Positions 8,691 to 15,128 of a stretch of 33,632 nt of DNA are shown piece by piece. The stretch is taken from contig CAIQNR010000025.1 of assembly GCA_903873255.1 (NCBI GenBank), forward strand, positions 1 to 33,632. Reading direction: 5' to 3'. The notes beneath the pieces are model-generated. The model searched no databases. It was not told where the DNA came from and saw nothing but the letters and a program-made list of their open reading frames with translations. Both the position numbers and the translations under genes were made by a program. Source of the stretch: an uncultured bacterium (GTDB lineage: Bacteria; Babelota; Babeliae; Babelales; CAIQNR01). Every line of letters starts with the position of its first letter. The stretch's first letter is position 1.

Positions 8691-9452
8691 ATGAAAACGA
8701 TATGTTCTGTTCAAAATGAATCAATTAAAAAAATTGCAACACTTCAAACGTCCAAAGGGCGCCTTTTACACAACCAGTTCATTGCAGAAGGGTTAAGAAC
8801 TCTTGAGCGCTTTGCAGCCGCAGGTAAAACTCCCCTTGATCTTTATGTACTTGAAACACTTTTTACCGATGCACGTATACTGTTTGGCAATAGTGATCCT
8901 ATTATTGTCCCTGACCATGTTATGAAGCGCATCAGCCCTTCAGTAACTCCTCCTGGCATTTTAGGCATTTTTGACCTTGATGATTTTTCTAGCGACATTA
9001 CAACACTTTCTGCTGACAACGCAGGGCTTGTACTTGCTAATGTTACTGACCCGGGCAATATGGGAACGCTTATTAGATCAGCTACAGCATGCGGCTATAA
9101 AACTGTTATTGTAGTTGAAGGTGTTGATCCTTTTTCCCCTAAAGTAATTCAAGCAAGCGCAGGGGCAATCGCTCATGTTGCACTTATAGAATGTTCTTGG
9201 GGCGAGCTTATAAAAGCAAATAATCGCCCTGCTTTATGTGCTATGACAGTTGATGGTTCAAAAACTATTAATGATCTTACCTCCTGCCAAGTTCTGCTTG
9301 TTATTGGCAACGAAGCGCATGGACTTCCTACAGAGTGGGTTGCTCAATGTGAATCAACCATTACACTTCCTATGGATGGATCTACCGAAAGTTTTAATGC
9401 GGCTGTTGCTGGATCTATTGCACTTTATTTACTGAAAAATAATATTAAGTAA
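8691..9452 (+). CDS. TrmH/SpoU-family RNA 2'-O-methyltransferase
   Basis: A 253-residue protein with an N-terminal substrate-binding domain (about 1-95) and a C-terminal SPOUT trefoil-knot domain. The three SpoU motifs are visible: NVTDPGNMGTLIRSA (about 117-131), LVIGNEAHGL (about 203-212) and TLPMDGSTESFNAAVAGSIA (about 225-244). Enzymes of this type use SAM to methylate a ribose 2'-OH in rRNA or tRNA. The overall form is closest to RlmB/TsnR-like 23S rRNA enzymes, but the target cannot be read from the sequence. The start is the ATG just after the terminator, with AGGG 11 nt upstream, so the leader is short. Its own promoter probably lies in or before the terminator. Confidence 0.87.
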   Translation: MKTICSVQNESIKKIATLQTSKGRLLHNQFIAEGLRTLERFAAAGKTPLDLYVLETLFTDARILFGNSDPIIVPDHVMKRISPSVTPPGILGIFDLDDFSSDITTLSADNAGLVLANVTDPGNMGTLIRSATACGYKTVIVVEGVDPFSPKVIQASAGAIAHVALIECSWGELIKANNRPALCAMTVDGSKTINDLTSCQVLLVIGNEAHGLPTEWVAQCESTITLPMDGSTESFNAAVAGSIALYLLKNNIK

Positions 9453-9466
9453 TTATATTCTTTATG

Positions 9467-9612
9467 TCTCGATACATTTACCTAACGATAAACACTCGAC
9501 ACGAGCGGCGTAACTTTGGCCACAATCACTACAGCCCGCTCAGCTCGAGTGATTTGAGCAACCAGTCTTACTTTGCTAAAGCTATGAAGAACTAGCGAAA
9601 ATAGTATCGAGA
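9467..9612. repeat. nested inverted-repeat element (REP/MITE-like or structured RNA)
   Basis: Perfect 9-bp terminal inverted repeats (TCTCGATAC at 9467-9475, GTATCGAGA at 9604-9612) enclose 128 bp. Inside, CACTCGA-CAC-GAGCGG (from 9493) pairs with CCGCTC-AGC-TCGAGTG (ending 9551) as two helices of 6 and 7 bp around a symmetric 3-nt interior loop. A third weak hairpin (TTTGCTA with TAGCgAAA) lies near the right end. The interior is richer in G+C than its surroundings and has no convincing ORF. It fills the gap between the methyltransferase and permease genes. It has the look of a dispersed palindromic element, but no second copy is in this window. Confidence 0.6.
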
Positions 9613-9643
9613 GGTAAAATAAACTTTTTAGAGGAACTCTTAC

Positions 9644-10927
9644 ATGTCTAAACCAAAAAAACTTTCGCTTATCGAAGCAATCTTTATCAACACCAACATT
9701 ATGCTCGGCACAGGAACCTTTGTTAATACAGCAATGCTCGCTCAGACAGTGGGCGCTTTAGGCGGATTTTTATATCTTGGCGCAGGCTTTTTGATGCTTC
9801 CTCTTTCATTTTGTTTTGCACGTCTTGCAAATATTTGTCCTGGCGGAACATTTTATGCATTTGGATCTTCACTCGGTAGATATTGGGGATTTATTAGCAC
9901 TTGGAGCTATTTTTTTGGAAAACTTGCATCTGCTTCTTTAAGTATCCATGTCTTTATTACCTTTTTGCAACGAACGATTCCTGCACTGCAAATATTCCCT
10001 GTAATTGGGCTTGATTGCGCACTGATAAGCTTATTTATCAGCCTTAATTTACTCGATGTAAAAACAGGAGGGAAAATACAATACCTTTTCCTTTCAACCA
10101 AAATACTTCCAATTTTATTTGTTATTTTTTCTGGGCTTCATTATACCAACATTATCAATATTCAAGCGCCCCATTTACTCTGGGATGGCATTCCTGTAGC
10201 ACTTCCCCTTATGTTATTTTGCTTTTTAGGTTTTGAATCTTCATGCTCACTGAGCCGCGTAGTTGAACAACCAGAAAAGAATATCCCTCGCGCCATTATG
10301 ATCTCATTTTGTCTTGTACTTTCCTTTATTTTCTTATACCAAACAATCTTTTATTTAAGCATGGGAAGCGCGCTTGCAGGAGCAAAAAGCTATGTAGATA
10401 TTTTTCCACTACTACTTTCTAAAGTGCTACCAAACAGCGCTGAGCTCCTTGCACCTTTATTTTCTACCACCATCGGTATTGCTGCATTAGGTGGTGCATA
10501 TGGAATTTTATATAGTAATCCTTGGAACTTATATACGCTCGCTGAACAAAAAGCGATTCCAAAAGCTGCATGGTTTACACAGCTTAATCGCCATTCAATT
10601 CCTTATATCTGCGTCATTACCGAAGGTATTTTGTGCTGCGCTTATATTCTGTGGCTTAAAGGTGCGCAAGTTCCGCTCCAATACACTGCAACACTTTCTT
10701 GCATTGTCACATATACCATCAGCGTTCTTGGCCTAATGAAAATTCAACCATCAATTTTAAGCTTCTTAGGACTTATTACTTGTATGACTGCATTGTTCTT
10801 TTCCATCAGAGGGTTTCTATATACCAGTACCTTACCATTACTTGTTTTAGGACTTATTCTGCTCTTTGGAACAATCAATTATTTTATTATTCGCTCAACG
10901 CAACTTAATAGTCATAAGAGCAATTAA
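9644..10927 (+). CDS. APC-superfamily amino acid permease
   Basis: A 427-residue membrane protein with about 12 hydrophobic segments. TM1 carries the unwound substrate-site motif MLGTGTFVN (APC consensus G-S/T-G-I-F). An amphipathic loop reads FCFARLANICPGGTFYAFGSSLG, the usual (P)xxGGxYxY region. Another APC landmark is FLGFESSCSLSRVVEQPEKNIPRA (TM6 and the following loop, consensus F.GfE......E...P.+.iPrAi). Proteins of this family carry amino acids in symport or exchange. The substrate cannot be determined here. GAGGAA upstream supports ATG 9644. The 3' end overlaps the convergent mraY gene by 33 bp. For a host-dependent cell it is a plausible route for amino acid scavenging. Confidence 0.87.
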   Translation: MSKPKKLSLIEAIFINTNIMLGTGTFVNTAMLAQTVGALGGFLYLGAGFLMLPLSFCFARLANICPGGTFYAFGSSLGRYWGFISTWSYFFGKLASASLSIHVFITFLQRTIPALQIFPVIGLDCALISLFISLNLLDVKTGGKIQYLFLSTKILPILFVIFSGLHYTNIINIQAPHLLWDGIPVALPLMLFCFLGFESSCSLSRVVEQPEKNIPRAIMISFCLVLSFIFLYQTIFYLSMGSALAGAKSYVDIFPLLLSKVLPNSAELLAPLFSTTIGIAALGGAYGILYSNPWNLYTLAEQKAIPKAAWFTQLNRHSIPYICVITEGILCCAYILWLKGAQVPLQYTATLSCIVTYTISVLGLMKIQPSILSFLGLITCMTALFFSIRGFLYTSTLPLLVLGLILLFGTINYFIIRSTQLNSHKSN

Positions 10928-13580: not shown

Positions 13581-15128
13581 ATGAAAAAACGTTTACCAAT
13601 AAGCATTAGTGAATTTAGAGAGATTAGAGAAGGCAACTATATTTACGTTGATAAAACAAAAATTTTATATGAGCTTACTCAAGGTAAGCAATACTTTTTA
13701 TCTCGTCCCCGCCGCTTTGGAAAAACACTCTTAATCTCTACCCTTGAGCAGCTTTTTTTAGGAAATAAAGAACTTTTTCAAGATACCTGGATTGCAACAT
13801 CAGATTATCAGTGGCAACACTATCCTGTCATTCGCCTCAACTTTTCTGGCATGAGTCACGATTCTGGTAAAAACTTTGAACATGATCTTCTCGGCAAGCT
13901 TATGAGAATAGGTGATGACCACAACATTAATCTTTCTGAACAACAAACTATTTCAGGAAGATTAACTGCTCTCATGGAGCAACTTTCTAAAGTAAATCCC
14001 GTTGTAATTCTTATTGATGAATATGATCATCCTCTTATTTCTAATGTTGCCGAAAAAGAACTTCCTATTGCACAAGAAATTCAACGCGTTATGCAAAGTT
14101 TTTTTGCAACAGTTAAGGCTACCGAACCGTACATGCGTTTTTGTTTTTTAACTGGCGTCAGCAGATTTTCTAAAACATCTATTTTTTCTGGCCTCAATAA
14201 TTTGCGAGATATCACCTTTAATCCACTAGCAGCTGATTTACTTGGCTACACACAACAAGAACTTGAACATTATTTTAATGACTATGTCATCGATTTAGCA
14301 CAGGATGAATCGGCATCTGTTGCTGATACCTATGCAAAACTCAAAACCTGGTATAACGGCTACCGGTTCTCAGATAAAACCATAAAAGTATACAATCCCT
14401 TTTCTATTATTAATGTGCTGGGCGATAAAAAATTTATCGATTATTGGTTTGGTAGTGGCACACCAGGATTTTTAATTAAATTGCTTCCAAACTATGGTCA
14501 AGAGCTCGAAAACCTTGCTACCACAACATTTGATGCCAACACACTTCGCTCATCATTTGAAGTTGGTAAACTCCGCCTTGACCTTCTCCTCTATCAAACA
14601 GGATATGTAACTATTTCAAATTATGATGATGACGTTTATTCTTTAGATTTTCCAAACCAAGAAGTGCGCACTGCCTTTAATCTGCATCTTTTAAGTTATT
14701 TGGCAGATAAAGATATCGTTGCAATTGGACAAATAGCGCGGCAGATAAAAAAAGCCTTAAAAATATGCGATCTACAAAAAGTTTTTGAACACCTCCAATC
14801 CCTTTTTGCTAATCTACCCTACCAACTACACAACAAACGTGAATCGTACTACCACAGCATGATTCACACATTCTTTTATACGCTCAACCTTAGCGTAACT
14901 TCAGAACATTCAACCAGCAGAGGCCGCTCTGATTTGGTGCTCGAAACGGCAAAATATATCTATATTTTTGAAGTTAAGCTGGATACATCCCCACAAGATG
15001 CGCTTGATCAAATAGAAACACAAAAATATTATGAACCCTTCTTGCAACTGAACAAAAAGATTGTTTTGGTTGGCATCAACTTCAGCTATTCAGATAAGCG
15101 ACTCGAAATTGAATACAAAAGTATGTAA
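13581..15128 (+). CDS. AAA-ATPase-like / PD-(D/E)XK nuclease superfamily protein
   Basis: This 515-residue protein has the standard two-domain layout of AAA-ATPase_like (PF09820) with a C-terminal DUF1703/PD-(D/E)XK domain. The N-terminus IREGNYIYVDKT is family-typical. Walker A is SRPRRFGKTLL (41-51) and Walker B VVILIDEYDHP (about 143-153). FLTGVSRFSKTSIFSGLNNL follows as the sensor region. The C-terminal nuclease-like core reads GRSDLVLETAKYIYIFEVKL (about 449-468), with the Asp and Glu-x-Lys of a PD-(D/E)XK site. Such genes are often multicopy in host-associated bacteria, and their function is unsettled (defence and mobile-element roles have been proposed). It sits exactly between two directly repeated blocks. 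AAAGG precedes the ATG. Confidence 0.9.
   Translation: MKKRLPISISEFREIREGNYIYVDKTKILYELTQGKQYFLSRPRRFGKTLLISTLEQLFLGNKELFQDTWIATSDYQWQHYPVIRLNFSGMSHDSGKNFEHDLLGKLMRIGDDHNINLSEQQTISGRLTALMEQLSKVNPVVILIDEYDHPLISNVAEKELPIAQEIQRVMQSFFATVKATEPYMRFCFLTGVSRFSKTSIFSGLNNLRDITFNPLAADLLGYTQQELEHYFNDYVIDLAQDESASVADTYAKLKTWYNGYRFSDKTIKVYNPFSIINVLGDKKFIDYWFGSGTPGFLIKLLPNYGQELENLATTTFDANTLRSSFEVGKLRLDLLLYQTGYVTISNYDDDVYSLDFPNQEVRTAFNLHLLSYLADKDIVAIGQIARQIKKALKICDLQKVFEHLQSLFANLPYQLHNKRESYYHSMIHTFFYTLNLSVTSEHSTSRGRSDLVLETAKYIYIFEVKLDTSPQDALDQIETQKYYEPFLQLNKKIVLVGINFSYSDKRLEIEYKSM

Follow-up and report, generated by a model that had tools for sequence, protein, structure and literature searches.

REPINs and BIMEs are built from GTAG-tagged REPs that go with RAYT (Bertels and Rainey 2011, PMC3116915; Nunvar 2010, PMC2817692). 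The best-described REPs without RAYT are the CGTC-tagged ones, which include Neisseria dRS3 and Rickettsia RPE (Di Nocera 2013, PMC3733652). They are reported to have no dedicated transposase, and in their families the stem, 8-9 bp long, opens with AT pairs, the loop is 4-5 nt and the tail is CCA.

The element described here lies in a window of 33,632 nucleotides, the whole stretch of DNA that was analysed (contig CAIQNR010000025.1). Its host has a small Dependentiae (TM6) genome (G000; 898 kb, 97% complete, 45 contigs). We are nearly certain that the element is a REPIN-like dispersed doublet. Like REPINs and BIMEs it consists of short imperfect hairpins with many dispersed intergenic copies, arranged as inverted doublets that appear to be copied as one piece, and no consistent target-site duplication was found at the doublet ends of the genome copies. 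Unlike them it has a conserved tandem-GA internal loop and a second, inner hairpin, and it has neither a GTAG tag nor a linked Y1/RAYT. The alignment has no GTAG or near variant at the unit end, where the conserved sequence is CCGYTCR, and no Y1/RAYT gene flanked by the repeat was found in the same genome, in the order or in Solimonas. The resemblance to CGTC REPs lies in the inverted dimers, often heterodimers, in the spread over several phyla including intracellular bacteria, and in having no transposase linked. The units themselves are different. Their head is CCGYTCR and their base stem 4 bp, with a GAG/TCGA loop and a long inner hairpin; they do not show the combination of tag (CGTC, TGTC or CCTC), AT-led stem of 8-9 bp, loop of 4-5 nt and CCA tail by which CGTC REPs are defined. 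A small GIY-YIG protein is linked to the repeat in other genomes of the order, and not in the window genome.

The doublet, about 150 bases long, occupies approximately 9463-9616, slightly beyond the 9467-9612 of the preliminary description, and is built from two inverted hairpin units. The features of the locus are as follows.

8691 to 9452, plus strand: SpoU-family RNA methyltransferase (Pfam PF00588), the upstream neighbour
9463 to 9616, no strand: whole element, a heads-in inverted doublet of L unit, spacer and R unit
9463 to 9509, minus strand: L unit (covariance-model match, 64.7 bits; alignment and pair counts)
9465 to 9468 with 9498 to 9501: base stem of the L unit, TGTC/GACA
9477 to 9492: inner hairpin of the L unit, which also has the GAG/TCGA internal loop
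9502 to 9508: head of the L unit, CCGCTCG
9510 to 9534, no strand: spacer separating the two heads
9535 to 9616, plus strand: R unit (covariance-model match, 59.1 bits)
9536 to 9542: head of the R unit, CCGCTCA
9543 to 9546 with 9611 to 9614: base stem of the R unit, GCTC/GAGG, its outermost pair a G.G mismatch
9552 to 9555 with 9599 to 9602: inner stem of the R unit, ATTT/AAAT, bearing a second GA/GA step
9575 to 9586, minus strand: core CATAGCTTTAGC of the small second palindrome that lies within the R hairpin tip
9644 to 10927, plus strand: amino-acid permease (Pfam PF13520), the downstream neighbour

An alignment of the genome copies gives the unit formula 5'-CCGCTCR-N4-GAGTG-(inner hairpin)-TGTATCGA-N4'. 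The preliminary description saw this stretch as a nested inverted-repeat element, and its stems are confirmed at the positions it gave. The perfect 9-bp inverted repeats are TCTCGATAC (9467-9475) and GTATCGAGA (9604-9612). The second stem pairs CACTCGA (9493-9499) with TCGAGTG (9545-9551) and GAGCGG (9503-9508) with CCGCTC (9536-9541). The element has no ORF of at least 80 aa, and its composition is distinct, with 44% GC against 32% in the other intergenic DNA of the window. A single perfect 9-bp inverted repeat means little here, since the window has 84 of them with arms at most 200 bp apart. Taken as a whole, the fold is nevertheless exceptional: z is -5.0 as RNA and -4.2 as DNA, and 0 shuffles were equally stable. 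The nesting comes from two inverted copies of one hairpin-forming unit that sit side by side.

It had been set beforehand that the element should be judged by a genome-wide search for other copies and by a covariance analysis for compensatory changes. Both were found. BLAST gives 12 further matches in the same genome, and a covariance model of the unit finds 35 units, one of them weak (E 0.4). Among 21 genome units there are 43 doubly changed (compensatory) cells, against 17 in shuffles. Among 124 distinct units, most of them found in other genomes of the order, there are 253 against 61, and 97.9% of cells are paired; fitting this alignment to the model biases it in the model's favour, but the paired share drops to 46-78% when it is slid. 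Energy folding favours a long stem across the two arms, which is the pairing seen in the preliminary description. We rejected it as the conserved structure. Base stems pair at 76 of 80 positions within units and at 45 of 80 across arms, in ten doublets whose stems were read by eye. The stems are thus upheld by covariation within each unit and not in the form first drawn. Conserved in the unit are the head CCGYTCR and the tandem-GA internal loop GAG/TCGA; the 4-bp base stem is variable, and an inner hairpin is usually present. Each unit is able to fold into a hairpin as single-stranded DNA or as RNA.

The 35 units fall into 15 close pairs and 5 singles, or about twenty dispersed copies in the genome, and they adjoin unrelated genes. 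All 15 close pairs are inverted (12 heads-in and 3 heads-out), for which the chance probability is 3e-5. Single units and R-L arrangements are also present. Nearly all doublets join an L subtype (TGTC/GACA stem) to an R subtype, mostly CCTC, CCCC or CCCT. The palindrome core CATAGCTTTAGC has four exact genome copies, each inside an R unit. Several doublets elsewhere in the genome have a common spacer of about 22 bp, and the window doublet is without this counterpart. Three R units have the same 31-bp insertion, with core CATAGC(T/G)TTAGC, at one point (G000 C22:13799-13885, C7:16637-16699 and C7:11530-11620). The insertion evidently entered once and was then copied along with the doublet. From the common spacers and the insert nested in three doublets it follows that doublets were copied whole.

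Units are present in 46 of the 101 genomes of the order (Ca. Dependentiae), with up to 55 in each, and in none of the five other genomes of the window genome's own family. The named matches are mostly candidate division TM6 or Ca. Dependentiae, plus Solimonas, an alphaproteobacterial MAG and Sideroxydans; some other pattern matches beyond these are probably chance. Four Solimonas genomes (L121, L129, L178, L180), which are free-living gammaproteobacteria, have 20-70 units each. A pattern search of viral contigs found no unit, and BLAST against phages and plasmids found no match. A literature search for related repeat strings found no paper containing them.

A screen of ORFs bracketed by units gave a protein of about 95 aa in three different genomes, which matches the GIY-YIG family (PF01541). 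This screen was biased, as its loci were preselected for having units, and the gene was then sought independently in all 101 genomes. A high-scoring subfamily is present in 27 of them, cut by eye at 87 bits, at the drop from 88 to 66 in the best score of each genome. With one gene taken per genome, covariance-model units often stand directly before and after it in inverted orientation. A strict motif, separate from the covariance model but written after units at these loci had been seen, lies within 200 bp of the gene at 16 of the 27 loci and on both sides at 12. The background of 0.035 per kb gives an expectation of about 0.4 units. The same motif was found at 1 of 29 permease loci and at 0 of 20 Y1_Tnp loci. 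Several of the remaining GIY-YIG loci have related hairpins when their flanks are read by eye, such as CCGTTCG-N3-GAG..TCGA-N3'. One Dependentiae gene (L266) is flanked by CCGTTCGCCCTGAGTG...TGTATCGAAGGG. Genomes with the nuclease also tend to have the repeat: units are found in 23 of the 27 nuclease-bearing genomes and in 23 of the 74 others (p = 1.2e-6, uncorrected for shared ancestry). In several genomes the base stem of the pair flanking the nuclease often recurs in dispersed units of the same genome. The family, REP-like and without RAYT, occurs in proteobacteria as well as in a bacterial phylum of parasites; its ties to a small GIY-YIG nuclease lie in position, in co-occurrence and often in the base stem.

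The GIY-YIG nuclease is the most likely engine of the spread of the hairpins, because they tightly bracket its gene in related genomes. We lean slightly towards it being, or having been, the mobiliser of the doublet. We think the full statement reasonably probable, namely that the window element is a mobile doublet, REPIN-like and non-autonomous, from a REP family tied to this nuclease rather than to a RAYT transposase. More tentatively, we propose an autonomous element in which the nuclease gene stands between two inverted tandem-GA hairpins, each nuclease lineage having a matching base-stem "code", with the gene-less doublets as its non-autonomous copies. Its form would be unit, GIY-YIG gene, inverted unit. 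We infer the rest of the route. The nuclease would recognise the unit hairpin and base stem in single-stranded DNA, the base stem being the specificity determinant, and would cut the single-stranded hairpin. Host repair or recombination would then copy the doublet to a new site. Gene-less doublets such as the window's would be acted on in trans. The nuclease linkage makes the question of the mobiliser directly testable. If the proposal is true, this class of bracketed nuclease supplies the missing mobiliser of some REPs without RAYT across several phyla.

There are possible relatives of such a nuclease to consider. A family called Ssn, from 2025, reportedly consists of site-specific single-strand GIY-YIG nucleases in Neisseria and others that act on repeats of this general sort. 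The Ssn family and the present one have in common a small one-domain GIY-YIG protein and a dispersed repeat as the presumed target. The phylum, the repeat sequence and the inverted bracketing of the gene come from the present analysis and are different. A possible kinship with Ssn is a lead to follow. The nearest solved structures to the linked nuclease are UPF0213 GIY-YIG proteins (PDB 1zg2 and 1ywl), whose entries state no function for them.

One can imagine a scenario where the linkage comes only from a nuclease cassette that inserts into REP-rich spots, or is held by them, while the repeats spread by another route. The nuclease gene might use REPs as insertion sites, and that would give linkage without mobilisation. 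Several unit-rich genomes fit this scenario, as 6 of the 11 unit-richest have no GIY-YIG nuclease, and base stems are not always matched: dispersed stems differ from the nuclease flanks in G064 and G055, and G078 matches only partly. However, the pairs that bracket the gene are often near-perfect inverted copies of each other a short distance from it, and in Bin_496 and OFTM129 nearly all sampled dispersed units have one common base stem. We consider the cassette scenario rather unlikely, though the most probable of the alternatives. Under the preferred reading, that the nuclease moves or moved the doublets, the copies of the window genome are probably orphans or relics, because that genome has no GIY-YIG nuclease (no match at E 1e-8, in 45 contigs that are 97% complete). 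It must be noted that the nuclease genes are mostly between heads-out units, and the gene-less doublets of the window genome are mostly heads-in.

The architecture would also suit a REPIN that a Y1 (HUH) transposase of the RAYT/IS200 type mobilises in trans, the arrangement described for GTAG-tagged REPs. The element is an inverted pair of imperfect hairpins, intergenic and without a consistent target-site duplication, and Y1_Tnp genes occur in 36 of the 101 genomes. We tested this candidate in the element's own genome, in the order and in Solimonas, and rejected it, as presence, association and adjacency all fail to support it. The window genome has no Y1_Tnp. Over the 101 genomes there is no association (Fisher p = 0.68, with 15 genomes having both), and the gene is missing from 9 of the 11 that are richest in units. 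None of the 20 Y1_Tnp loci of the order has a unit nearby. In Solimonas there is 1 unit near 17 Y1_Tnp loci, about what chance gives, and the RAYT there has GTAG REPs of its own, which serves as a positive control. A Y1 transposase is thus a very improbable mobiliser. The best Y1_Tnp locus of the order (L086) is an ordinary IS200/IS605 pair in which a tnpB-like ORF comes after tnpA.

The preliminary description also offered a structured RNA in the permease leader, that is, a cis-acting leader, riboswitch or attenuator of the permease gene. The element does lie between co-oriented, closely spaced genes and folds strongly, and one terminator-like site is called on the minus strand. Across the order, spoU and the permease gene are kept as a pair. 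The spacer between them is 8-146 bp long and has no unit in 14 relatives, and in the window genome it is 191 bp. Since the gene pair is conserved while the spacers of these relatives are without the element, the comparison of orthologous spacers marks it as an insertion and not a conserved leader RNA. The same element stands beside unrelated genes, and an Rfam search of the window matched no family. A leader RNA is scarcely believable on this evidence, although a secondary effect of the element on mRNA stability is possible. The reading as a mobile doublet explains about twenty structured intergenic insertions in a reduced genome of 0.9 Mb, which could be mistaken for riboswitches or leader RNAs. 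A distant relative of another family (G018) has a different doublet of the same repeat family in the orthologous spacer (L241, G018:C69, about 2794-2972). It seems to have inserted there independently, and it is the single permease locus counted above.

The remaining suggestion, a MITE derived by deletion from a DDE-type insertion sequence with terminal inverted repeats, shares with the element its short, non-coding, dispersed form and inverted ends, but it is the least credible of all, as there is no consistent target-site duplication, single units and R-L arrangements occur, and the arms are two different hairpin subtypes, not matched TIRs, with base stems that are not complementary to each other. 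Of the two kinds first proposed, REP or MITE-like, the first has held in the sense of a REPIN-like doublet that is present in many copies and shows compensatory changes, and the classical MITE is weak.

Two minor observations may be added. The window also encodes an AAA-ATPase-like / PDDEXK_9 protein (PF09820 and PF08011) at 13581-15128 on the plus strand. In the candidate division TM6 bacterium GW2011_GWE2_42_60 (L176, 1993-2345) five units form a direct tandem array (period 76 bp), in contrast to the window genome with its inverted pairs.
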